From Ignavibacteria bacterium RIFOXYC2_FULL_35_21 (GTDB lineage: Bacteria; Bacteroidota; Ignavibacteria; Kapaibacteriales; UBA2268): a stretch of 36,041 bases of DNA. Below, piece by piece: positions 12,082 through 36,041 of the stretch (positions within the stretch are counted from its first letter, which is position 1; every line of letters starts with the position of its first letter). The notes below the pieces were generated by a model that saw nothing but the letters and a program-made list of their open reading frames with translations, was not told where the DNA came from and ran no database searches. The stretch lies in contig MHAY01000081.1 of assembly GCA_001804705.1 (NCBI GenBank), positions 1 to 36,041 of the forward strand, written 5' to 3'. A program made the position numbers and the translations under genes.

Positions 12082-13014
12082 CTAACGAAATAACTGCAGG
12101 TAGGACTGCGGATTTTGGTTAGCCTGTGCCAATGAAATCAACGAAGCCTGCTGCAAGAACTGTGCTTTGATTAACTCAAGCTGTTCGATTGCAACGTCAG
12201 CATCTTCGATTCTCGATACGGCAGCGTTATAATTCGTAATCTGCGATTTCAACAGCTCTTCCTGTGAATTCAACCTGCCGGTGATACCGCCAAGATATGA
12301 ACCAACCTTGCTGACATTGTTCAATGCTGTTGCAAGGCTCGAAAGAGTCGTGGAAATGTTATCTGACGAAAACACACCAAGATCAGTATCACTTACATTG
12401 TTCAAACTTGTAAGGTCTAGTCCGGACACACCTGCAAAGTTTGTCGTTGATGTAGCATTAACGTTGAAGTTGTTACTTGCAACATTAAAGTCGGTGTTGT
12501 TTGTAGTAAGGTCAATGCCCAGAGTAAGCAGGGCATTTGCGGCTGTATAACCGATTGTCCAGCTTCCTGAGAATGAACCTTTGATTAGCTCTTTGCCGCC
12601 GAATACTGTAGCATCAACTACAGTCTGCACCTGCTGTGCGAGACGATAGGCACTCTTGGCAAGAGCGACTTTCTCATCCGTGCCGAGAGCACCTGAAGAA
12701 GCTGATGCGGCAGCATCTTTAATCTGTGTTACAAGGCCATTGATATTGTCTAAAGCATCCGAAGCAATTGAAGTTACGCTCTGAGCGTCTCCTACGGTGT
12801 TCAGAGCGGCTTTCAATGCGCCATTACGGGCAGTAAGAGACCTTGCCGTGATATAGCCTGCGATGTCGTCTGCAGCCGTGTTGATACGCTTACCTGTCGA
12901 TAAACGAAGCTGTCTCAGGGCTATGTTGTTGTTGCTGGAAAGTAATGCGTTGTAAGCATTTTCTGCCGGGGTGTTGGTTCTAATCCTTGAACCGCCCGAA
13001 ATTGCAGTTGGCAT
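12082..13014 (-). CDS. fliC: Flagellin
   Basis: The 310-residue protein has the conserved terminal domains of flagellin. The N-terminal D0/D1 part (about 1-140) has LRQLRLSTGKRINTAADDIAGY and later ALDNINGLVTQIKDAA. The C-terminal D1/D0 part (about 235-310) has SQEELLKSQITNYNAAVSRIEDADVAIE and ends SLISLAQANQNPQSYLQLF. The middle (about 150-230) is short, variable and Asn/Thr-rich, so the filament surface domain is small. It is exported by the flagellar type III system and polymerises into the filament. The start has a strong RBS (GGAGG, six T before ATG). A sigma-28-like promoter lies 70 bp upstream and a terminator follows, so it is its own transcription unit. It is the only flagellin in the window. 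Confidence 0.95.
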   Translation of the reverse strand: MPTAISGGSRIRTNTPAENAYNALLSSNNNIALRQLRLSTGKRINTAADDIAGYITARSLTARNGALKAALNTVGDAQSVTSIASDALDNINGLVTQIKDAAASASSGALGTDEKVALAKSAYRLAQQVQTVVDATVFGGKELIKGSFSGSWTIGYTAANALLTLGIDLTTNNTDFNVASNNFNVNATSTTNFAGVSGLDLTSLNNVSDTDLGVFSSDNISTTLSSLATALNNVSKVGSYLGGITGRLNSQEELLKSQITNYNAAVSRIEDADVAIEQLELIKAQFLQQASLISLAQANQNPQSYLQLFR

Positions 13015-14002: not shown

Positions 14003-15199
14003 ATGAAAAAGATTTTCTTGTTTGTTATTATTATAATTTTCTTACCATTTTCTTCTATTTTTTCATTGTGGGAACCTGTTAATAATGGTATTGGAGATGA
14101 TATAATGCTTTGTCTTGGCACGCAAGATAGTTTGATTTTTGCAGGAAGTATGTTTTCAGGAGCTTTTATTAGCTCAGATAATGGTGAAAATTGGATTAAG
14201 ACAAAAGAGAAATTTGGAATGGGAGGTATTTCTTGTTTTGTAGAAAATAATGGAAATATATTTGCAGGTACTTGGCATGAGGGTATTTATATATCAACTG
14301 ATAAAGGGGAGAATTGGGAATTAGTTAATATTTGGAGGTATGAGATTAATAATATTAATAGTATTGCATTTATGGGAAATTATTTCTTTGCTGGAGCGGA
14401 AGAGAAAGGAATTTACCTCAGCACTAATAACGGAGAAACCTGGAGTGAATTAAATCAGGGATTGAATAACAAAAAGATAAAGTCTTTAGCTGTTAAAGGA
14501 GATACAGTATTTGTAGGATTCCATTTTTCCTGTGGTATTCAGGAAGGCGGCTTATACAGGTCAATTGATAAGGGAAATAATTGGGAAGCAATTAATCATG
14601 AGTTGGTTTATTATGAACCGATTTGGCTTCTTGCTATTAATGACAACACCATTTTTGCCGGTAATGCACTTGGTTTAAAAAAATCAACCGATGGAGGTGA
14701 AAATTGGGAACATACCAATAAGGGTATAAAAGACTCAATAATACAAAGTATTGCTATAATTGATAAGAATGTTATTATTGGCACTGTTGATAAATTATAT
14801 TTATCAACAAATGACGGAGCAAAATGGAAAGATATTACATCCTGGCTTAAAATAGATGCCGATTTTATTTCTTTTACATATCAATCACCCTATGTATATG
14901 TAGCAATTGGTACTCAAGGTATTTATCGGGCAAAATTGATAGATTTAATAACTTCTGTTGATGATGAAAACGGAGAGTTATCAAGTTCGAATCTAGTATA
15001 TCCAAATCCAATCAATGATAAATTATTTATTAAATCACAAAACTCAATAATTACAAGCAAAATTGAAATATACAATTTGGTTGGTTTAAAAGTATTAGAG
15101 ACTGGATTCAAAGAAGAAATTGATGTGAGCAATTTTATGCCCGGAGTTTACTTTCTGAGAATAGGTAATGATAATATTAAATTTATAAAATCACAATAG
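14003..15199 (+). CDS. Secreted BNR/propeller-repeat protein with T9SS sorting tail
   Basis: The 398-residue protein starts with a signal peptide (about 1-21). Six repeats follow with the S-x-D-x-G-x-x-W signature: SSDNGENW (57-64), STDKGENW (98-105), STNNGETW, SIDKGNNW, STDGGENW and STNDGAKW (268-275). These are BNR/Asp-box blades of a beta-propeller, usually a binding or glycan-recognition scaffold. The last 65 residues (VYPNPINDKLFI, then GVYFLRIGNDNIKFIK) are a type A T9SS C-terminal sorting domain, so it should be displayed on the surface. RBS AGGAG precedes the ATG by 6 bp. It sits between an 83-bp direct repeat pair beside the remnant of a paralogue. No enzymatic residues are evident; its ligand is unknown. 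Confidence 0.88.
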   Translation: MKKIFLFVIIIIFLPFSSIFSLWEPVNNGIGDDIMLCLGTQDSLIFAGSMFSGAFISSDNGENWIKTKEKFGMGGISCFVENNGNIFAGTWHEGIYISTDKGENWELVNIWRYEINNINSIAFMGNYFFAGAEEKGIYLSTNNGETWSELNQGLNNKKIKSLAVKGDTVFVGFHFSCGIQEGGLYRSIDKGNNWEAINHELVYYEPIWLLAINDNTIFAGNALGLKKSTDGGENWEHTNKGIKDSIIQSIAIIDKNVIIGTVDKLYLSTNDGAKWKDITSWLKIDADFISFTYQSPYVYVAIGTQGIYRAKLIDLITSVDDENGELSSSNLVYPNPINDKLFIKSQNSIITSKIEIYNLVGLKVLETGFKEEIDVSNFMPGVYFLRIGNDNIKFIKSQ

Positions 15200-15277
15200 T
15201 GTTTCGAGATGCTTCGACAGGTTTAGCATGTCATTCTCTGCGACTTTGGGGCTTTGTGTGAGAAAGGAAACCCCCGA

Positions 15278-15296
15278 ACCCCCTTTGAAAAAGGGG
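15278..15296. terminator. Hairpin CCCCCTTT/AAAGGGGG, repeat or terminator
   Basis: An 8-bp perfect stem with a GAA loop lies 79 bp after the propeller gene stop. There is no T-tract, so it may be a dispersed repeat rather than a true intrinsic terminator. Confidence 0.4.
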
Positions 15297-15313
15297 GCAA
15301 TCATAATAATCAG

Positions 15314-15356
15314 ATTAATCACACAAATAAAAGTTCAGACAATTTGCGTCATTGTG
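15314..15356. repeat. Right arm of the long-range inverted repeat
   Basis: Reverse complement (about 85-90 percent by eye) of 13354-13397. It carries ATTAATCACACAAAT and GTTCAGACAATTTGCG. Confidence 0.65.
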
Positions 15357-15372
15357 CGGAATAAGAATTAAT

Positions 15373-15455
15373 AATCTGTGTAATCCGGTTAATCAGATTA
15401 ATCTGCGGTTCAGACTTTATTTTTCCATTTTTTTTTATTTAATTTGAAACAAAAT
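15373..15455 (+). repeat. 83-bp direct repeat, right copy
   Basis: Same sequence as 13719-13801 with one mismatch. It ends 70 bp before the preferred start of the ECF sigma factor gene, so it may include or displace that gene's native upstream region. Confidence 0.9.
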
Positions 15456-15525
15456 CGGAAAAATTGTATTTATTATCTTTAGATGCAGGAGCAATTTGTT
15501 ATTTTGATTGAAAAGAATAGATTTT

Positions 15526-16104
15526 ATGGTTAACAGCTTTCAAAATACACCTGACTCTGAATTGTACCAATACCTCGGCGGAAGCAATCAGGATAAGGAG
15601 TTGGCGTTCAGGGAAATTTATAAGCGGCACTCGGCAAAAGTGTACGCTTATTGCAGAAGGGTGGTCGGGAATAAAGAAATAGCTGAGGATTTGTTCCAGG
15701 ATACTTTTCTGCGGCTCCTGCAAAGTTCTTCTAGAGATAAAGAAATGGTTAATCTTTCAGGCTATATTATAAAGATTGCAAGAAACCTTTGCCTCAAGCA
15801 CAAATCGCACCAGGAAGAGTTCGTGTCGCTCGAGGATTTTGAAATAAAGGTCGAAGAAAATACGCTTGAAAGAACAGAAGTAACGAATATTATATCAATG
15901 GCTCTCGAGCTTCTCGGAGATGATTACAGGGAAGCCCTTGTTTTGCAAACTTACGATGAGCTTTCGTACAATGAGATTGCCGAGATACAGGGCGTACCAT
16001 TGACGACTGTAAGAAACAGAATTGTCAGGGCAAAGCAGAAGCTGAGAGAGATAGTCCAGCCTTACCTGGCGGATAACAATAATTATGAAAGCAATGGAGG
16101 ATGA
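15526..16104 (+). CDS. ECF-family RNA polymerase sigma factor
   Basis: With the ATG at 15526 the protein has 192 residues; an in-frame TTG at 15508 would add six. Region 2 (about 25-90) has FREIYKRHSAKVYAYCRRVV, then IAEDLFQDTFLRLL, the core-binding and -10 recognition helices. Region 4 (about 125-180) has LGDDYREALVLQTYDELSY, then EIAEIQGVPLTTVRNRIVRA, a typical helix-turn-helix for -35 recognition. The length and the absence of regions 1.1 and 3 are characteristic of ECF sigma factors, which respond to envelope or surface signals when released by an anti-sigma partner. The next gene encodes a membrane protein of that type, and its RBS (GGAGG) lies inside the end of this gene, so the two are translationally linked. 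Confidence 0.92.
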   Translation: MVNSFQNTPDSELYQYLGGSNQDKELAFREIYKRHSAKVYAYCRRVVGNKEIAEDLFQDTFLRLLQSSSRDKEMVNLSGYIIKIARNLCLKHKSHQEEFVSLEDFEIKVEENTLERTEVTNIISMALELLGDDYREALVLQTYDELSYNEIAEIQGVPLTTVRNRIVRAKQKLREIVQPYLADNNNYESNGG

Positions 16105-16108
16105 ATAA

Positions 16109-17380
16109 ATGGAAATTATACAAAATAACTCGCTCTCAGACCTGATATACCTTTTCCTCGACGGAGAAGCCGACAGCACACAGCAGGATTTGTTATTCAA
16201 AAACCTTGCTGATAATCCTGAGTTGCAGTCTGAGTTCCAGGATGCGGTTACACTCAACAAATCATTATCTGCCGATTCGAAGAATTTAGTTCCTTCGAAT
16301 GAACTGACACACAACCTGTTCGTTAAAGCCGGCTTTGAATCAGGTGCGGCAGGTTCAGGCGTAACCGGAATAGTTTCCGAAACAACAAGGAACACCTTCC
16401 TTTCCGGAATAATCGGGAAAATCAAATCATCCATTATCCCTGCTTCCATTGGTTCAGTGATAACAGCGGCATTGCTGACAACGGGCATGTATTTATTGGA
16501 CATTGATTTTCATTCAGACGGGCGTGCGGCAGTAAATCAGGGAGGTACACAAAGACAGGCAGTTACACAGAATGAAAATACAATTCCTGTTGTGAAATCA
16601 GAATCCGTTCATGGAGTAGATAAATCAAATCAACTTTCAAATGTTATCAGGAGAAGGGCTGTCCCTGTGTTTTCGGAGAATATACAGACAACACCTGAAA
16701 ATAATGTTGAAACAGTTACAGAAAATACATTAGAGACAACAGAGAATATCCCTGTAATTTTCATACCTGATATTCAGCCGTCAGACTTAGTTCAAATGAA
16801 TGATAAACCTGAATTGAGTTACAGGAATAATGATTTCATACATTTGAATACACCGCCGAGTGTAGGATTTGGTGACCTGTCAATACCAACTAAACTGAAT
16901 GTATTGGTTGAAGTGAAAGGAATAAATAATCTTGCTTATATGCATCAAAGTAATATGAGTGAGTCAAAGGTTTTTCTGAATAATGCCGCACTGAATGTTT
17001 TCCGTAAGCTAAATGATAATAACTATATAGGATTTAGTGGCGGTAATGAAATATTGCGTATGTATGAAGTGGTAGAAGATTCTAACGGTATTAATTTTCT
17101 TAATCAACCAAATATGGCTTGGGGTGGTATTATTTACAGAGGACTTTCTGATAAAATTGAAATTCTCGGCAACCTTCAGCTAATTTTTGATTGTGCAGTG
17201 GGCTTTTCAAAATTGGGATATTTGGTTAAACCAGTTGCAGGATTATATTATAATCCTGAAAACAGTTTTACACTTGGTTTGGGTATTGAAGGAACAGGCC
17301 TATTATTTTATAATACAAGAAGTGATACAAAAGGAACAGGGAAAATTGCTCTTGTATATAGTTTCGGATATAATTTCTGA
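16109..17380 (+). CDS. Membrane anti-sigma factor-like protein with large extracytoplasmic domain
   Basis: The 423-residue protein starts four bases after the sigma factor stop. The N-terminal cytoplasmic part (about 1-105) begins LSDLIYLFLDGEADSTQQ and continues FKNLADNPELQSEFQDAV. This is the short acidic helical start seen in anti-sigma factors of the Bacteroidota group, but the HxxxCxxC zinc motif is absent. One membrane segment follows (about 108-130, IIPASIGSVITAALLTTGMY). The remainder (131-423) is periplasmic: a low-complexity Thr/Glu/Asn linker to about 230, then a beta-rich region that ends LVYSFGYNF, resembling the closing strand of an outer-membrane barrel. Most anti-sigma factors lack such a domain; it could be the sensor. 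The role is inferred from position and topology. Confidence 0.7.
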   Translation: MEIIQNNSLSDLIYLFLDGEADSTQQDLLFKNLADNPELQSEFQDAVTLNKSLSADSKNLVPSNELTHNLFVKAGFESGAAGSGVTGIVSETTRNTFLSGIIGKIKSSIIPASIGSVITAALLTTGMYLLDIDFHSDGRAAVNQGGTQRQAVTQNENTIPVVKSESVHGVDKSNQLSNVIRRRAVPVFSENIQTTPENNVETVTENTLETTENIPVIFIPDIQPSDLVQMNDKPELSYRNNDFIHLNTPPSVGFGDLSIPTKLNVLVEVKGINNLAYMHQSNMSESKVFLNNAALNVFRKLNDNNYIGFSGGNEILRMYEVVEDSNGINFLNQPNMAWGGIIYRGLSDKIEILGNLQLIFDCAVGFSKLGYLVKPVAGLYYNPENSFTLGLGIEGTGLLFYNTRSDTKGTGKIALVYSFGYNF

Positions 17381-17400
17381 TAAAAAAGAAGTGAAAAACC

Positions 17401-18105
17401 ATGAAAAAGTTAATAATAAGAATATTGGAAATACTTGTGCTGGTGATAGTCTCTTTGTTGATACAATCCTGCACGGAAGGAAGCATTTATCCAACACTCC
17501 CTACGGATTACAGTAAAAACTTACTTGATTCGGGTTATTATCCTAATAATGTTGGGTCGTATTGGAGTTATGAGATTTCGATATCAGATTCAATACCTTA
17601 TGTAATTGATACTGTGGATGTAAGGCTTGTTACTAATGAAATTAAGGCTGATAGCAGTCAATTTCTTACCTATAATTACCATTATTATCAGTTTGGTGAT
17701 AATGATTCTGTGTATGAAGTATTGAAAAAAGATACTATCGAGCGGTTAAACAATCCTAATATTTCGTTTAAGTCAATATTAATAATACCTTTTAGTGTAG
17801 GGGAAATTTTTATCCAAATGATAATTGATTCAATTTATAACTCTGAACAAATAACTATTGAAATGATGGTTGAAAGTTATGACAGTGTTTTTGTGAAAGC
17901 CGGAAGATTTATGGCTTATAAAATTGTAACTACAGTAACCTACCAAAGGTTTGGTGATAGTCCGACTTATACGAGGGAAGTGCTTTACTTTGTTCCTTTT
18001 ATAGGATTTATTTCTGTTGTAAATGAATTTTGGGATGAAAATAATCGTAGATATTTTTCCAAGGAAAGATGGGAATTGATGGACTTTAAAATCGAAAAGA
18101 AGTGA
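17401..18105 (+). CDS. Predicted lipoprotein of unknown function
   Basis: The 234-residue protein has a lipoprotein signal peptide: basic MKKLIIR, a hydrophobic core, then LLIQSC with the lipidated Cys24. The mature part is rich in beta-strand-forming residues and aromatic Tyr (YYPNNVGSYWSYEIS, then YNYHYYQFGD), with no recognised domain. It lies 20 bp downstream of the anti-sigma-like gene and 98 bp upstream of the large T9SS substrate, all on the plus strand, so it probably belongs to the sigma operon. It may be an outer-membrane-attached component of that signalling unit. I do not recognise the family. Confidence 0.75.
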   Translation: MKKLIIRILEILVLVIVSLLIQSCTEGSIYPTLPTDYSKNLLDSGYYPNNVGSYWSYEISISDSIPYVIDTVDVRLVTNEIKADSSQFLTYNYHYYQFGDNDSVYEVLKKDTIERLNNPNISFKSILIIPFSVGEIFIQMIIDSIYNSEQITIEMMVESYDSVFVKAGRFMAYKIVTTVTYQRFGDSPTYTREVLYFVPFIGFISVVNEFWDENNRRYFSKERWELMDFKIEKK

Positions 18106-18203
18106 AATTTTAATAAATAACATTGAATCCGGATTTGTGAATATATTCATACAATTTATTGATATTATGTGTAATTTAATAATGATTTTATAAGGAGGAA
18201 GAA

Positions 18204-20732
18204 ATGAAACAAATTACGATTAAAACAAGAGCAGTAATCGGAATAATTCTGTTCATGTTTATTCTACCACTATTAGCATCAGCTCAGAACAGCGGGCATA
18301 TTTACTTTAAGAACCCGTATGCTGAACTCGTCGGAGTAGTTGGGGATACTCTGTATTATAAGGCTGAAGCAGTTACAGACCTCGACGATGAAATCAGATA
18401 CTCGCTTGAGTATGGCGAAGAGGGAATGACAATTGACGAAATGACCGGCGAATTTCGCCTGATTACAGACCATAAAGGATTTTACAGAGTAGCCATAAAA
18501 GCTACACTGCTTAATCACCCCGAAGAGGAAGCACACCTTGGCTTGGTTGTTATTATTTTGTTTAAGGATGAATTGCCTTGTGCCTATATTAAAGGCACGA
18601 TTACCCTGAAAGACGGGGAACCTTATGTAGGCGCTTATGTCTCGGTAATGGCTGCAAGGGATTCAAGTAATTACGGATATTATCCCAGCACTGTAACAGA
18701 TGAAAACGGATATTATGAATTAAATCTGCCCAAGGGGGATTACTATCTCGGTGTCGGGACGATGAATGGCTCATATATATGGTATCCCGGAACCCAGGAC
18801 TTAAACCAGGCAACATTACTTACTCTTGATTGTGAGCAGACAATAACTGCCGACTTCACAATTGATGAATCACTCTTTGATTATGTATATTTCATGTCCT
18901 ATCCCGAATATATGGGATTTTTAAATGAGAAATATACATATAAGGCAGAAGCGATTTCAATGTTAGGGAAAGAGCTCCGTTACAGGCTGGATGAAGGTCC
19001 TGAAGGGATGACAATTGATGCAACTTCAGGCCTGCTCGAATGGTCTCCAACTGAAAAGGGCGAATTCACTGTTTCGATTACTGCTTATGCTGTAGATAAC
19101 GAAGCAGTGAATGCAAACCAGATGTGGATGATATACGTTGTTGACAGCTTAGAAAAACCTTGTGCATATATTAACGGCACTGTAAAGGATAAAGACGGCA
19201 ATCCGGTTGATAATGCTTTTGTATTTGCTTATGCGGTATATGATTCAACATGGGAACGCAACAGTAAGTTTAATTCCTTCTTCGAAGCCTTTACAGATAA
19301 AGACGGCAACTATTCAATCAACATAATTAGCGGCGAATTTTATGTCGTCGCACAAGGCTATGACTTCAACCCTGTTTATTACGAAAACACACAGGATTAC
19401 AACGAAGCAAAAATCCTGACGGTTGAATGTAACAATACATATACAATCAACTTTGAGGTCGAAAGATATAAGCCGCCAACGAATTATACTGTAGAAGGTA
19501 CAGTAACAGCAGAGAATGACGGCTCACCTGTCGAAGCAGTCGTTCAGTTCATACCCGAAGATGCATCATACAGGGATTCTCTCTGGTGTCCGAATGGATA
19601 TTTGTTTGAAACCTATACTGATTCTGAAGGGAAATATAAGATTGAACTGCCTGACAATATGAAATACTATGCAATGGCTGTGGCTCTTAGCGAGGAGTAT
19701 CTTCCTGAATTTTACAATAACGTGAGAAGTATTACAGATGCAACAAAGCTCGAGTTGACAGACAATCTGACAGGAATTGACTTTACATTGCCATTGAGGC
19801 CCGTATTCAATAATGGGTTTTATGGATTTGTAAGAGATTCGGCAGGTGACCCTGTAACGGCAATGGTTACTGCATATCCGTTTGACAATCTCGACCAGTC
19901 GAATTTTATGCCGAGGTCTGTCGTTACCGATTCAAGCAATACCGGGAAGTTCGTGATTACTAATCTTGTACCCGGACGCTATGTATTATATGCCATACCA
20001 TTTGATAGAGAGGTTACTCCCGGATTTTATGTTGACGGAGACTTCGCAACATGGGAATGGGAAAAGGCAACTAAGATAAATGTTCCTGCCGACGGTATGA
20101 TTGATTATGAGCATGTAATCATGCTGCCGAACATGGATTCCAAATTCTTTGGTATTGCCCAACTCGACGGATACGTCTATGAAGAAGTAACGGGAGCAAA
20201 AAAGAACGGTCAAATCCAAAGTTCAAAGCCACTTTCGGGCGTTAACGTAACGGTTGTTGACAACAGTGGCAAAAGCCTCGATAATTCTATTACCGACCAG
20301 AACGGATATTATAAGTTAGACAATATCGGTGTCGGTGCTTATAAGATAGTTTACAGCAAGGTTGGCTATGGTTCTTATGAGACAGTGCTAAACTTCGATG
20401 CTATGGAAAATTCACGTCAGAACCAGAACATCACACTTCAGCCAAAGGGAACAACAGGAGTTGATGATGTAACGGTTTATACTGATGACATTGGAGTATT
20501 TCCACAACCTGCAAGCGACAAAGTGGAGCTTAGGTTCAACTCTATGCAAGGTGATGCAACAGTCAGCATAACGAATGTTCTCGGAGGACAGGTTATGAGC
20601 AATTCAATCAGTATTGCAGACGGAAATTCAAGAATCAGTCTTGATATTTCCAACCTGCCCTCAGGTGCTTACATCATAACAGTAAGCGGAAACGGAACAC
20701 CGAAACACGCTTTAATGAATATAGCAAGATAA
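18204..20732 (+). CDS. Large secreted multidomain protein (Ig-like and carboxypeptidase-regulatory-like repeats) with T9SS tail
   Basis: The 842-residue protein has a signal peptide (about 1-27, ending LLASAQ). Two Ig/cadherin-like domains follow, at about 31-118 and 225-320, sharing GMTIDEMTGEF / GMTIDATSGLL. They alternate with carboxypeptidase-regulatory-like beta-sandwich repeats (about 126-210, 325-420, 430-525, 535-640, 650-750), each with a TDENGYYELNLPKGDYYL-type core. The last 85 residues (IGVFPQPASDKVEL, then LPSGAYIITVSGNG) are a type A T9SS sorting domain, so it is exported and probably attached to the surface. The modules suggest an adhesive or matrix-binding role; no catalytic residues are seen. 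RBS AAGGAGG precedes the ATG. A terminator follows at 20754, closing the sigma-linked unit. Confidence 0.9.
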   Translation: MKQITIKTRAVIGIILFMFILPLLASAQNSGHIYFKNPYAELVGVVGDTLYYKAEAVTDLDDEIRYSLEYGEEGMTIDEMTGEFRLITDHKGFYRVAIKATLLNHPEEEAHLGLVVIILFKDELPCAYIKGTITLKDGEPYVGAYVSVMAARDSSNYGYYPSTVTDENGYYELNLPKGDYYLGVGTMNGSYIWYPGTQDLNQATLLTLDCEQTITADFTIDESLFDYVYFMSYPEYMGFLNEKYTYKAEAISMLGKELRYRLDEGPEGMTIDATSGLLEWSPTEKGEFTVSITAYAVDNEAVNANQMWMIYVVDSLEKPCAYINGTVKDKDGNPVDNAFVFAYAVYDSTWERNSKFNSFFEAFTDKDGNYSINIISGEFYVVAQGYDFNPVYYENTQDYNEAKILTVECNNTYTINFEVERYKPPTNYTVEGTVTAENDGSPVEAVVQFIPEDASYRDSLWCPNGYLFETYTDSEGKYKIELPDNMKYYAMAVALSEEYLPEFYNNVRSITDATKLELTDNLTGIDFTLPLRPVFNNGFYGFVRDSAGDPVTAMVTAYPFDNLDQSNFMPRSVVTDSSNTGKFVITNLVPGRYVLYAIPFDREVTPGFYVDGDFATWEWEKATKINVPADGMIDYEHVIMLPNMDSKFFGIAQLDGYVYEEVTGAKKNGQIQSSKPLSGVNVTVVDNSGKSLDNSITDQNGYYKLDNIGVGAYKIVYSKVGYGSYETVLNFDAMENSRQNQNITLQPKGTTGVDDVTVYTDDIGVFPQPASDKVELRFNSMQGDATVSITNVLGGQVMSNSISIADGNSRISLDISNLPSGAYIITVSGNGTPKHALMNIAR

Positions 20733-20753
20733 AAAATGACATTATAGAATTAG

Positions 20754-20790
20754 AAGAGCCCGGAGAGCGAATGCCCTTTGGGCTTTTTTG
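20754..20790 (+). terminator. Terminator of the T9SS substrate gene with two alternative hairpins
   Basis: GCCC-TTT-GGGC (20773-20783) makes a tight hairpin ending in six T (20784-20789). The same GGGC can instead pair with AAGAGCCC at 20754-20761 in an 8-bp stem. Both put the T-tract directly 3', so termination is expected either way. It starts 21 bp after the stop. Confidence 0.75.
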
Positions 20791-20814
20791 TACTTGATAA
20801 TTTTTTTTCAAAGT

Positions 20815-21024
20815 TTATGCAACTTCCAATTCTAAAAACTTGGTTTTTCTTTTTGGAATATGTTTGCCTTCTTCTTTTATCATTTCAATATGAAATTCAA
20901 TAGCTTCTTTTATGAGAGTTGTAACATCTTCTTCTGTTTCCGCTACTGCAACACAACCCGGTAAGTCGGGAACATAGGCTCCATAAGAAGTTTTTCCTTT
21001 TTCAATAATAACTGTGTATCTCAT
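20815..21024 (-). CDS. HicB-like small antitoxin-fold protein
   Basis: From the ATG at 21024 the protein has 69 residues. MRYTVIIEKG, then YGAYVPDLPGCVAVAETEED and IKEAIEFHIEMIKEEG form the compact HicB/UPF0150 fold (beta-beta-alpha, with the P-D-L-P-G-C motif). An in-frame TTG at 21036 is less likely because the ATG directly follows the stop of the preceding gene. In hicAB systems HicB neutralises the mRNA-cleaving HicA. No HicA reading frame (about 60-80 residues with a G-S-H-x-x-[FY] motif) is present next to it, so it is an orphan here. It follows an interrupted ribbon-helix-helix gene with a 2-bp gap, suggesting the two were once an operon. Confidence 0.8.
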   Translation of the reverse strand: MRYTVIIEKGKTSYGAYVPDLPGCVAVAETEEDVTTLIKEAIEFHIEMIKEEGKHIPKRKTKFLELEVA

Positions 21025-21026
21025 AT

Positions 21027-21263
21027 TTAACCACAAACAATAGTATATTTACCTTCCTTAGCTTGTTTCAATCCTTTTCGTAAAGACGGAAAGAGGTTCT
21101 TCAGGCTTGCCATTTCCACATCCAAAACAAAAATATCATCCCACACATAATTGAGTGCGGCAAATTCAATGTAATTCGATATTGTACGATGTTCTCCTTC
21201 AGAAGCTTTTTTCAGAAGCTAATATACATCATCCTCGAGTCTTAGAGTAATCGTTTTTGACAT
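21027..21263 (-). pseudogene. Ribbon-helix-helix (CopG-like) antitoxin gene interrupted by an amber stop at codon 15
   Basis: The frame beginning ATG 21263 encodes MSKTITLRLEDDVY, then TAG (21221-21219), then an open frame: LLKKASEGEHRTISNYIEFA, NYVWDDIFVLDVEMASLKNL, FPSLRKGLKQAKEGKYTIV and a TAA stop at 21029-21027. The whole is 78 codons and fits a CopG/RHH antitoxin (T-I-T-L-R-L strand, V-Y-x-L-L-K-K-A helix, S-N-Y-I-E-x-A helix, K-G-L-x-x-A-K-x-G-K-Y-x-I-V end). Such proteins normally precede a RelE-type toxin; here a HicB-like gene follows two bases later. The rest is intact and coherent, so the mutation looks recent. It could be a real point mutation, an assembly error or a suppressed codon. 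Confidence 0.75.
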
Positions 21264-21271
21264 AATTCATT

Positions 21272-21313
21272 TTGAATAATATTGACATAATAATTATTCA
21301 AAATTATTCATAA
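21272..21313. promoter_or_regulatory. Operator-like inverted and direct repeats upstream of the RHH gene
   Basis: TTGAATAAT (21272-21280) and ATTATTCAA (21293-21301) are a perfect 9-bp inverted repeat. TTATTCA recurs in direct orientation right after it. It sits between the divergent RHH gene (start 21263) and the restriction gene (start 21401). RHH antitoxins bind such short repeated half-sites to repress their own promoter; this function is inferred from position. Confidence 0.4.
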
Positions 21314-21400
21314 TAATTCAAAAGCAAAAAGATTTATAAAAATTTGAAAAATTAATTTTTTGTAAGTTTGTGTAATATTTGTCATTAATTTTATTTTAAT

Positions 21401-22342
21401 ATGCATCCGTTCGAGATTGAATTAAGTGTTACAACTCAGGATATTGAGTTAGAATTAAGAGGAACAACAAGTGTTCTATGGTCTGAGTTTCTTCTGAATC
21501 CCAGAAGGCTTCGTGGAAGCGATTTTCTCATGCGGTGGTCTCAGGGTGTATGGTCTGAAAAAAGGTTAATCGATGCTATAAATCGAACTGATGATTTTTT
21601 CGCTATTCCTTATGGTCCAAGTGGTACAGCACCAACAGATGATGTTCGCTTATTTGAATTATATTTTGAAAGATTAGAGAAAGCTGGTTTAGGTAAAATT
21701 AAGCGACCGGACCTTCTGTTATTTTCAATTAAAGAGAAACCATTTGTAGATGGCTTTGTGAAACATCTAGGTGGTATTGAAGAATTACCTTTTATAAATG
21801 AAAAAAAATTAAAACCAATCATCCAAAAAGCTATTATAGCTATTGAATGTGAGAATTCTTTATGGGTAGCTGATAAGATGCCCGCCTACGGTCAATCCTT
21901 AAAACCGCAAAAACGACTTAACGGGAAATTGGGATTAACAAAGAATGCAGTATTGCCAACTGTTATAATCAAAGAAGAAGATAGAATACCTTTAAAAAGT
22001 TGGCAAAAAAGTAATAAAATAAATATTCATATATGGCATGTTTTCTTTGACCGGGCTTACGGAATTTCACTCAATGAAATTGAAAGGTTATTAAAAGAAG
22101 ATTTTATTAAGCCCCCCGAACAAACTTTCCAAGCTCCTGGTGGAGCAACGACCAAAAAAATTATATATAAGATATATTATCACTATGCTTATCCATTGGG
22201 TATATCCACTGAAACACCTAAATTAGTTCCTGATTATATACAAGACAAAAATGGCCATATTTTACCATATGTGAAATTTGAAGGCGGAGCTTTACAACTC
22301 GCAGAGGAAGCATATATTCTTTTAAAATCTTTAGATATATGA
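21401..22342 (+). CDS. Type II restriction endonuclease (possibly AccI-like)
   Basis: The 313-residue protein is translationally coupled to an adenine-type DNA methyltransferase (ATGA overlap of stop and start), the usual layout of a type II R-M pair. Candidate nuclease residues of the PD-(D/E)xK superfamily are KRPDLLLF (Asp104) and, about 45 residues later, IIAIECENS with Glu149 and Glu151. The D...ExE arrangement, with Glu in place of the usual Lys, occurs in BamHI-type enzymes. The surrounding pattern (ECENSLW, then MPAYG) reminds me of AccI-type endonucleases, which cut GTMKAC, but this is from memory and cannot be verified here. The gene is more AT-rich than enolase and other core genes in the window, consistent with acquisition by transfer. 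Confidence 0.72.
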   Translation: MHPFEIELSVTTQDIELELRGTTSVLWSEFLLNPRRLRGSDFLMRWSQGVWSEKRLIDAINRTDDFFAIPYGPSGTAPTDDVRLFELYFERLEKAGLGKIKRPDLLLFSIKEKPFVDGFVKHLGGIEELPFINEKKLKPIIQKAIIAIECENSLWVADKMPAYGQSLKPQKRLNGKLGLTKNAVLPTVIIKEEDRIPLKSWQKSNKINIHIWHVFFDRAYGISLNEIERLLKEDFIKPPEQTFQAPGGATTKKIIYKIYYHYAYPLGISTETPKLVPDYIQDKNGHILPYVKFEGGALQLAEEAYILLKSLDI

Positions 22343-23832
22343 GAGTAAATCATCAAATATTACCAACACAATGGCATGAGCGGGAGACGCTTCGTAATAC
22401 AGGACAATTTTGGACACCAGATTGGATAACATTACCTATGGTTCAGTATGTTTCCAAGAATTCTAATTTGATATTTGACCCCGCTACTGGAACCGGTGCC
22501 TTTTTGCAGGCAATATTGACCTTAGATAAAGACATTAATTTTTATGGAATTGATATCGACGATAATGTATTACAGAATAGTATTTATAAAAACAATAAGG
22601 AGACAATCGAAAAAAGAGATTTTATAAAAAATCCTCCAAATAGAAAATTTAAGTCCATTGTTGCAAATCCTCCATACATACGCCATCATAGGATTGATGA
22701 GAACACTAAAAATTTCCTAAAAAATTTAACACGTAAAATTACAGGTTTTACAATTGATGGTAGAGCTGGATTTCATATATATTTTTTATTACAAGCGCTA
22801 AATTTACTAGAAGAAAATGGCAGGTTGGCTTTTATAATGCCAGCAGATACTACTGAAGGTATATTTTCTCATAAATTATGGAATTGGATTACAAAGAATT
22901 TCTGTTTAGAAAGTGTTATAACATTCTCCGAAAATGCTGCTCCTTTCCCTGAATTGGATACTAATGCTTTAATTTTTTTCATTAAGAATCAAAAACCACA
23001 AAGTAAGCTCCTTTGGGTTAATGTTAAAGAGGTTGGTAATAGTATGTTGCAACTTATACAATCTGATTTCGAAAATTGTAAATACCAAAATGTCGAGATA
23101 ATAGAAAGAGATTTAGATGAAGCATTAAAAACAGGATTATCACGTCCGCCTCACCAAGAATTGATATCGAAATATAAACTTTCTGATTTTGCTACGATTA
23201 TGCGTGGCATTGCAACCGGAGCAAATGAATTTTTCTTTTTAACACAAAAACAAGTTAACGATTTAAAATTACCACAAAGCTTTTTCAAACGAGCAATTGG
23301 AAGAACCAGAGATGTACCGGATAATATTATAACTCAAAAGGAATTAGCCGAATTGGAAAAAAAAGGGCGTCCTACTTTGTTATTGTATATTGATGAACCT
23401 AAAAAGGAATTGCCGGAATCGTTGTTAGACTATATTCAAAAAGGTGAAAAATTAAAACTTAATAATCGTTCTTTACTTAAATTAAGAAAACCCTGGTACA
23501 AAACCGAAAAGAGAAAAGTCCCGGAATTGTTATTTGCATACCTTGGCAGACGTTATTCCCGTTTTATTAAAAATGAAGCTGGTGTTTTAAATTTACATTG
23601 TTTACACTGTGTCTATACACATTCAAAAGAACCTGAACGTATCAATAACCTTTGGAAGGTTCTAAACCATCCTGACACATTAAAAAATTTAAAATATGTA
23701 AGCAAAAGTTATGGTTCAGGTGCTTTAAAAGCCGAGCCACAGAATTTAAAAAATCTAATTATACCTGAAGGATTAGTTAAAATGTACAGTTTAGAACCAA
23801 AGAGAAAAATGATTGATAATAGATTATTTTAA
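22339..23832 (+). CDS. N6-adenine DNA methyltransferase of a type II R-M system
   Basis: The 497-residue protein has the gamma-class adenine methyltransferase order: motif X-like TGQFWTPDWI (21-30), motif I DPATGTGAFL (47-56) for S-adenosylmethionine, and motif IV NPPY (110-113) for catalysis. The C-terminal half (about 270-497) is the target-recognition domain, with TIMRGIATGANEFFF near its start. It would protect the host from the nuclease encoded just upstream, with which it shares an ATGA overlap. The family is that of M.TaqI/M.AccI-like enzymes. The recognition sequence cannot be read from the protein. Its TAA stop overlaps that of the convergent permease gene in the palindrome TTAA. Confidence 0.88.
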   Translation: MRVNHQILPTQWHERETLRNTGQFWTPDWITLPMVQYVSKNSNLIFDPATGTGAFLQAILTLDKDINFYGIDIDDNVLQNSIYKNNKETIEKRDFIKNPPNRKFKSIVANPPYIRHHRIDENTKNFLKNLTRKITGFTIDGRAGFHIYFLLQALNLLEENGRLAFIMPADTTEGIFSHKLWNWITKNFCLESVITFSENAAPFPELDTNALIFFIKNQKPQSKLLWVNVKEVGNSMLQLIQSDFENCKYQNVEIIERDLDEALKTGLSRPPHQELISKYKLSDFATIMRGIATGANEFFFLTQKQVNDLKLPQSFFKRAIGRTRDVPDNIITQKELAELEKKGRPTLLLYIDEPKKELPESLLDYIQKGEKLKLNNRSLLKLRKPWYKTEKRKVPELLFAYLGRRYSRFIKNEAGVLNLHCLHCVYTHSKEPERINNLWKVLNHPDTLKNLKYVSKSYGSGALKAEPQNLKNLIIPEGLVKMYSLEPKRKMIDNRLF

Positions 23833-35638: not shown

Positions 35639-36041
35639 AATTTGTAATCAAAACTTCATAATTCATTAATTTTAGTTTTATACAAAATAAGAATAAATTT
35701 TGAATTATTTAATTTTTAGTTTAAAATTTACAATTAGAATCGAAACCCTATTATATAAAATTTCATAACTGAAATAGGACTAATTACTCTTTAATTAGAA
35801 AAAATATTTTTCATTAACACTGTGACATTTTCCATTTTTTTGTGTTATTGCAATTAGAGGCATGACATTTTTTTAAAATTATTTTGATTTTTTCTGAGAC
35901 CTTTTTTGGTTTCATGTGTCATTTGATATATAATTGATGCAATTTAATATTTAGTCGTTCCTTATAAAGTCATTTTTTATTCAACAACAATGCAAAATAA
36001 AATTTTTCTTTTTGAAGAGGAACATAAAACAAATAAAATCC
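35639..36041. other. Intergenic region at the window end
   Basis: The stretch from the DUF2142 start to about 35989 is very AT-rich with long T runs. I see no gene, RNA or strong hairpin in it, though it should hold the promoter of the minus-strand DUF2142 unit and of whatever begins at 35990. Confidence 0.5.
35990..36041 (+). CDS. Possible start of a gene running off the window
   Basis: ATG at 35990 opens MQNKIFLFEEEHKTNKI and stays open to the window end (17 codons). There is no good RBS and too little sequence to recognise a family. It is listed only as a possible partial gene. Confidence 0.3.
   Translation, partial: MQNKIFLFEEEHKTNKI

Follow-up and report, generated by a model that had tools for sequence, protein, structure and literature searches.

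The window, a stretch of 36,041 nucleotides, is one entire contig (MHAY01000081.1) from the 4.15 Mb genome of Ignavibacteria bacterium RIFOXYC2_FULL_35_21, whose completeness is 97.75%. It carries four co-directional genes on the forward strand, separated by gaps of 4, 20 and 98 nucleotides (Table 1). These encode an extracytoplasmic function (ECF) sigma factor, a partner protein that is a putative anti-sigma factor, a lipoprotein, and a surface protein sorted by the type IX secretion system (T9SS). Together they are likely to form a signalling cassette whose anti-sigma factor spans the cell envelope. The gene calls and coordinates of an earlier first-pass annotation, made from the sequence alone, are right for all four.

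Table 1. Features of the four-gene set, with positions in the window and residues of the 423-residue protein where a domain is meant.
Feature	Positions	Strand	Basis
Probable ECF-type promoter motif, TGAAACAAAA-N11-GTATTTAT	15445-15473	+	family-matrix score of 14.2 bits; matches the genus scan pattern exactly
ECF sigma factor, 192 residues	15526-16104	+	PF04542, PF08281, TIGR02937 (95.7 bits); alternative TTG start, also open, at 15508
Putative trans-envelope anti-sigma factor (Dma-like), 423 residues	16109-17380	+	AlphaFold2 model; 131 collected full-length family members
Helical cytoplasmic domain, probably sigma-binding, no zinc motif (residues 9-73)	16133-16327	+	four model helices, the last at low confidence
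Predicted single inner-membrane helix (residues 109-125)	16433-16483	+	hydropathy 1.74 over 17 residues; helix 114-124 modelled, low confidence
Predicted disordered linker, about 136 residues (126-261)	16484-16891	+	pLDDT below 50 up to residue 260
Predicted 8-stranded outer-membrane beta-barrel with C-terminal aromatic residue (residues 262-423)	16892-17377	+	model; Z 13.8-14.4
Lipoprotein, 234 residues, predicted half-barrel of LolA/LolB/RseB type	17401-18105	+	hydrophobic N-terminus ending LLIQSC; structure model; fold comparison
T9SS-sorted surface protein, 842 residues, five CarboxypepD_reg stretches	18204-20732	+	PF13620 5.2e-38, PF18962 2.7e-10; sorting tail 20496-20696

The sigma factor has both region 2 and region 4 (PF04542, 5.9e-15; PF08281, 3e-14), as expected of the ECF group. 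The 842-residue protein ends in a Por_Secre_tail domain that scores 40.8 bits against a cut-off of 27 (PF18962). Matches to SprA lie inside one 2345-residue frame of the source genome, so that a T9SS is likely present, judging from sequence. With a sorting tail and a translocon gene in the same genome, the 842-residue protein has the marks of a type A substrate.

The partner was modelled with AlphaFold2 from 14 sequences, at a mean predicted local distance difference test score (pLDDT) of 56.6 and a predicted template modelling score of 0.40. The model contains four N-terminal helices, a poorly modelled helix at residues 114-124, and strands between residues 265 and 422, mostly at pLDDT 70-93; for residues 65-260 the pLDDT is below 50. 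There is one hydrophobic stretch in the protein, at residues 109-125, and the segment before it is acidic, with a net charge of -7 over 108 residues. The zinc motif HxxxCxxC is absent from the first 110 residues of all 131 family members, which places the domain outside the zinc-binding anti-sigma (ZAS) type. An acidic cytoplasmic domain with no zinc motif, followed by one membrane helix, is what the first-pass annotation had described. The family has a conserved N-terminal pattern, L..LFLDGE...LF..L..N.ELQ.EF, and of 32 members scanned, four gave weak N-terminal matches to zf-HC2 (best E 0.046) and one to RseA_N (8.8e-5). The partner itself matches nothing in Pfam up to E 1 and nothing in NCBIfam near the cut-off; the sole NCBIfam matches of the partner and the lipoprotein, at E 0.024 and 0.086, fall far under it. 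Searched against PDB sequences, the family profile found three matches, V-ATPase proteolipids at E 0.36 or worse.

Fold comparison places the C-terminal domain, residues 262-423, among outer-membrane barrels. Its top match is a Legionella porin (Z 15.6, 145 residues, 4.2 A). Similar scores are found for OprF-N (Z 14.4, 117 residues, 2.8 A), PagL (Z 14.2, 124 residues, 2.5 A), NspA (Z 14.0, 130 residues, 2.7 A) and OmpA (Z 13.8, 144 residues, 3.8 A). With Foldseek the lowest E is 2.4e-4, for FadL; Ail, OmpA, OmpX and NspA also appear within the first 50 matches. The model is that of a complete eight-stranded barrel, and the domain probably sits in the outer membrane. Of the earlier description, the beta-rich C-terminal domain is borne out by the predicted structure, and its role as a periplasmic sensor is not.

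The domain could alternatively be the periplasmic beta-domain of a conventional anti-sigma factor that never enters the outer membrane. Soluble barrels (avidin-type, PsbO) do reach Z scores of about 10.5, but the top-ranking outer-membrane barrels exceed this (Z 13-14) and extend across the domain. Further signs against a periplasmic domain make it very improbable. The protein ends in an aromatic residue, and 85 of the 131 members end in F, 24 in L and seven in Y, with F, L, Y, W or I accounting for 120. OMP_b-brl matches occur in two of 32 members (best 6.7e-5). Likewise, every collected member has an estimated linker of at least 95 residues. This length, counted between the most hydrophobic segment and a point 165 residues short of the C-terminus, ranges from 95 to 194 residues in the 131 members, with a median of 134. 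An extended residue measures about 0.34 nm, so that even a 95-residue linker would reach about 32 nm, enough to cross a periplasm. PF13568 was also tried as a way to family members in the source genome; it gave ten matches, and the seven loci inspected hold OmpA-type and other proteins, not the partner family.

The partner belongs to a family with many copies. The 131 full-length members remained from 136 unique anti-sigma frames after five partial frames were dropped; they are hits chosen for retrieval, mostly full-length and from the window's order, out of a larger number of matches. An ECF gene lies directly upstream in 130 of the 131, which rules out a chance neighbourhood of sigma factor and partner and bears out the pairing that the first-pass annotation had proposed. 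At least five members are encoded in the source genome, all of them preceded by an ECF gene. Including this genome, 54 of 60 genomes have a match to the family. In the 7.9 Mb genome G050 (L196-L207), 27 matching stretches fall in at least 15 distinct anti-sigma genes, since some genes give two stretches.

In a profile search of the phylum, with at most five candidates scored for most genomes, 74 of 296 genomes match, the source genome included. Among the matches listed, those beyond the window's class cover the N-terminal part only; full-length members come from its order and from a small number of genomes in the class (L069, L072). The named loci are metagenome-assembled genomes, mostly labelled Bacteroidetes/Bacteroidota, Ignavibacteria(e) or Candidatus Kapaibacterium; NCBI taxonomy places Kapaibacterium in the Bacteroidota, class Eximiradiia. 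The family is centred on the Kapaibacterium lineage, to which the window, too, appears to belong.

The N-terminal domain resembles short anti-sigma-like proteins across the phylum. At L074:1465-2562, an ECF-like gene is followed by an anti-sigma-like domain and membrane helix that are, by eye, fused to a trypsin-type protease-like domain. Because the domain recurs in short proteins and, at L074, beside a protease-like domain, it may have been subject to domain shuffling.

Evidence for control of the operon by its own sigma factor comes from a promoter motif. A count of spaced words before the sigma genes, with no motif supplied, yields words of the form GTAAC-N15..17-TTGTTA. The fitted matrix reads TGtAACattt-N11-gTGTTATT, and its spacing is almost fixed (96 of 106 sites). 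Sites of at least 11 bits precede 94 of 130 sigma genes and 2 of 390 shuffles, the matrix having been fitted to the same regions that were counted. Held-out clusters provide a separate test, with sites of at least 10 bits in 68 of 99 regions and 9 of 495 shuffles. All these shuffles preserve base content only.

The site before the window's sigma gene is found with the same spacing and at nearly the same distance in the four closest relatives (L034-L037). It is probably the promoter of an autoregulated operon. As no other site of at least 10.5 bits lies between 8275 and 25652, all four genes probably share it. The earlier suggestion that the sigma factor controls the operon is thus supported in silico by a conserved motif. 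A scan of positions 15000-21500 for sigma-70 promoters and terminators gave nothing above shuffles. The motif also occurs twice near the contig end, at 35821-35923 on the forward strand, with high scores (21.1 and 19.0 bits); a short frame, open from 35990, continues past the end of the sequence, and a regulated gene may be truncated there.

Some cassettes begin one gene earlier, because 8 of the 36 sigma genes scoring below 11 bits have a site of at least 11 bits before the adjacent co-directional upstream gene. An example is L093 in the source genome, where the sigma gene scores 2.7 bits and the gene upstream of it has a 19.0-bit site. In nine cassettes (L093, L116, L140, L143, L145, L169, L175, L177, L181), a co-directional gene with its own strong motif was seen directly before the sigma gene. 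Several of these genes start like lipoproteins.

A lipoprotein is the usual next gene in the family. A lipoprotein-like gene lies within 600 nucleotides downstream of the anti-sigma gene in 103 of 130 members, at a median gap of 14 nucleotides, compared with 36 of 385 control genes taken from these loci. One member with less than 700 nucleotides downstream was left out of this count. A first lipobox detector found 72 of 130 and missed the window's own lipoprotein; the loosened detector that gave 103 was used for the control too. Several of the 27 misses resemble lipoproteins by eye.

The 103 lipoproteins form 32 clusters by mature sequence, the largest with 35 members and the window's with six, and one from the source genome carries DUF4397. 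The window's lipoprotein has no Pfam match and no sequence match to RseB, and its profile found one match among PDB sequences, at E 0.42. It was modelled from 8 sequences at a mean pLDDT of 74.6. The best matches of the model are Bacteroidales proteins of unknown function (Z 14.2 and 13.4), and LolA/LolB and RseB/MucB follow at Z of about 8.

In E. coli and Pseudomonas, the genes for RseB and MucB come right behind those of their anti-sigma factors. That position, the fold predicted for the window's lipoprotein and the regular presence of a lipoprotein gene after the family's anti-sigma genes would fit a stress switch of the RseA/RseB kind. In such a switch, the lipoprotein would bind the anti-sigma linker and protect it against proteases, until it is titrated away by lipids or by envelope components that have misassembled. 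The idea of an RseB-like co-regulator is attractive but weak, and a switch of this kind is unlikely here: a Z of 8 may reflect a mere common arrangement, a sequence match to RseB is lacking, and 32 clusters and a DUF4397 copy make a single shared fold doubtful.

The first-pass annotation had named conservation of the four-gene order as the check on its proposal, which would fall if the genes did not occur together in relatives. The order is kept in the window and its four closest relatives, five loci in two genera. Across these relatives the T9SS protein is 59-80% identical to that of the window, and the anti-sigma factor 40-71%. In the wider family, a T9SS-tail gene is second downstream in 22 of 98 members and within the first four genes in 28 of 98, compared with 7.2% of 850 locus genes. 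The window and its four relatives make up five of the 22. The count leaves out 33 of the 131 members, which have less than 3.5 kb downstream, and the window supplied the two tails from which the tail model was bootstrapped.

The linkage bears on the circuit first proposed for this locus, in which the anti-sigma factor reads the secretion or surface attachment of the 842-residue protein, as in a checkpoint with feedback. Such a role is consistent with the linkage in five loci and with the higher conservation of the T9SS protein. A related arrangement appears, by eye, at four loci from another family of the phylum (L097-L100): the gene directly after each Dma-like anti-sigma gene encodes a T9SS-tail-like protein of about 320 residues, a linkage of the same kind as the window's. 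Similarly, the Porphyromonas T9SS-tail protein PorA has been proposed to relay a surface signal to SigP (PMC7712824). Nevertheless, the checkpoint is a rather improbable account, since 70 of the 98 members have no T9SS-tail gene among the first four co-directional genes and co-transcription explains the linkage equally well.

Beyond the operon, one candidate target stands out. In four genomes of the genus, eight exact matches to the window's version of the motif were found: four at the sigma operon, three before an orthologous lipoprotein gene and one elsewhere. This unlinked gene encodes a cysteine-rich lipoprotein of 179 residues, with orthologues 69-76% identical. The motif precedes it in all four genus genomes, three times exactly and once with one mismatch. 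Two copies occur in the source genome (L284:1503-2042 and L286:1402-1941) and one was found in each of three genus relatives (L267, L273, L279); the copy scanned has no Pfam match.

Looser searches give more sites than the same pattern read backward. Allowing two mismatches in the source genome yields 23 sites versus four, and allowing one mismatch in five genomes yields 19 versus three, several of the 19 being intragenic or having no called gene within 330 nucleotides. A window-type motif with two mismatches precedes a 1229-residue VWA/T9SS-tail protein of the source genome, and one with a single mismatch precedes a G015 protein that is similar to it by eye. A broad regulon of exported or T9SS proteins beyond the cassettes was considered and is not upheld. 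By a crude hydrophobic-stretch test, 12 of 17 strong-motif genes are exported versus 190 of 344 others (p 0.32), leaving out the nine genes that sit directly before a sigma gene; with these still included the figures are 21 of 26 versus 197 of 356 (p 0.013).

With the predicted architecture, the gene order, the conserved promoter motif and the motif-linked lipoprotein gene of the genus found computationally, the set is likely an autoregulated cell-surface signalling cassette with an envelope-spanning anti-sigma factor. The helical cytoplasmic domain of the 423-residue protein would hold the sigma factor. One helix would cross the inner membrane, the roughly 136 disordered residues would cross the periplasm, and the C-terminal barrel would be assembled into the outer membrane. 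A change there, such as misassembly or loss of the barrel or binding of a ligand, probably acting with the cognate lipoprotein, would then result in the anti-sigma factor being cleaved or released. Once free, the sigma factor would transcribe, from promoters of the TGAAAC type, both its own operon and one or more unlinked lipoprotein genes. Perhaps other T9SS proteins would be transcribed as well, and the surface coat would change.

Several observations weigh against this account. The inner-membrane helix of the partner is modelled at low confidence. The motif, at 11 bits or more, also occurs before 32 of 511 other genes of the loci, and two of the five source-genome cassettes score low before the sigma gene (2.7 and 8.4 bits). 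Downstream, no lipoprotein-like gene was detected in 27 of 130 members, and most of the 98 members counted for T9SS tails lack one nearby. Outside the cassettes, T9SS tails are found in 4 of 17 strong-motif genes versus 45 of 344.

Other genes surround the operon. Directly upstream of the sigma gene, at 14003-15199, is a second T9SS-tail protein with BNR/sortilin-type repeats; by eye, the gene at this position is not the same in L034-L036. Downstream, at 21401-23832, genes for an AccI-like restriction endonuclease and an Eco57I-type DNA methyltransferase stand side by side and probably form a type II restriction-modification pair; L034-L036 carry other neighbours there by eye. A flagellin gene lies at 12082-13014 on the reverse strand, in a genome that also encodes the T9SS protein SprA.

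Several known systems share part of this design. The RpoE-RseA-RseB and AlgU-MucA-MucB systems have the order sigma factor, membrane anti-sigma factor and third protein, and RseA and MucA have no barrel. The window's set resembles them in gene order and in a third protein of possibly similar fold, at the level of fold only (Z about 8). In the FecA-FecR-FecI system, an outer-membrane barrel controls an ECF sigma factor, the barrel being a TonB-dependent receptor and the anti-sigma factor a separate protein. Unlike this system, the window's is predicted to join barrel and anti-sigma factor in one polypeptide.

The first-pass annotation knew of no described system with this composition. That view has to be given up, since the same architecture is in print for the Dma (dual membrane-spanning anti-sigma) proteins Dma1 and Dma2 of Bacteroides and for a pair from Phocaeicola vulgatus (PMC13088901, PMC9308784). 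In these published systems, loss of the anti-sigma factor frees the ECF sigma factor. The Dma2 operon is described as sigma gene, Dma gene and third gene (PMC13088901). Like Dma and Das, the window's pair combines a putative sigma-binding N-terminal domain, one membrane helix, a long disordered tether and a predicted C-terminal outer-membrane barrel with an adjacent ECF gene, in an operon of the same order. The barrel, the single helix with its tether and the adjacent ECF gene are features expected of a Dma protein. In contrast to Dma and Das as described, the system found here has sigma factors that fall outside the Das clade, N-terminal domains that do not align with those of Dma, a promoter motif of its own, a linked T9SS protein and a high copy number, with at least 15 distinct genes counted in a single genome.

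The window's family may still be a true but very diverged branch of Dma, with one ancestor of sigma factor, tether and barrel inherited in both Bacteroides and the Kapaibacterium lineage, a possibility that is best held as doubtful. In its favour are the same four-part architecture and gene order. Dma2-type operons, located via DUF4943 in two genomes, likewise have a lipoprotein-like gene (DUF4943) directly after the Dma2-type gene. Further Dma-like proteins were added for comparison with hhalign, which gives a probability of 1.6% with two Dma2 rows and 34% with eight Dma-like rows (E 4e-4 for a single comparison), in the barrel part only. Such a weak alignment could arise between any two eight-stranded barrels, and hhalign does not align the N-terminal domains. 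In addition, a two-sequence Dma2 profile has no match in the 20 listed genomes of the window's genus, family and order.

Sigma factor phylogeny, by which Das/ECF21 membership was judged, points both ways. The tree included the window's sigma factor and 34 drawn at random from the other 129 of the family. Eleven Das-like sigma factors form a clade (100/99) on a long branch that contains none of the 35, and by this tree the window's group falls outside Das/ECF21. The 35 group together at 75/92, not firmly, and a constraint holding both groups together is not rejected (approximately unbiased test, p-AU 0.352).

Somewhat doubtfully, double-membrane-spanning anti-sigma factors may have arisen more than once, each time through fusion of a widespread cytoplasmic anti-sigma domain with an outer-membrane barrel. 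The Kapaibacterium lineage would then have built a multi-channel surface-control network, one genome having no fewer than 15 such genes in parallel. In this network, every barrel would read a surface lipoprotein or T9SS protein cognate to it and, acting through a particular variant of the TGtAAC-type promoter, rewrite the surface coat.

The P. vulgatus pair (M0N98_03761/03760) has an anti-sigma factor predicted to span the periplasm and to end in an outer-membrane barrel, and has been compared with EcfO of B. fragilis (PMC9308784). The likeness to the window's pair is by description. Its sigma gene is induced by the toxin BcpT, probably via envelope stress, and its reported regulon, unlike the window's, includes longer O-antigen and NigD. 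The PorA-PorXY-SigP system of P. gingivalis likewise couples a T9SS-tail protein to an ECF sigma factor, but its signal runs via a two-component system, and the available text of PMC7712824 mentions no barrel anti-sigma factor.

A literature search on Kapaibacterium (kapabacteria) with anti-sigma or sigma factors, in coverage that lacks most subscription journals, found no report, and the promoter code was not found in print within that coverage. The trans-envelope kind of anti-sigma factor is already known, and the lineage is distinct. The window's system carries the principle, known from studies of gut Bacteroides and related bacteria, into an environmental lineage deep in the phylum, where the sigma factors fall outside the Das clade and the regulatory code is open to testing. 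That some genomes hold so many of these genes suggests that this way of controlling the surface is important in such little-studied bacteria. The motif, the lipoprotein and T9SS partners and the candidate unlinked lipoprotein target offer handles on how a bacterium may read the state of its outer surface with one polypeptide.

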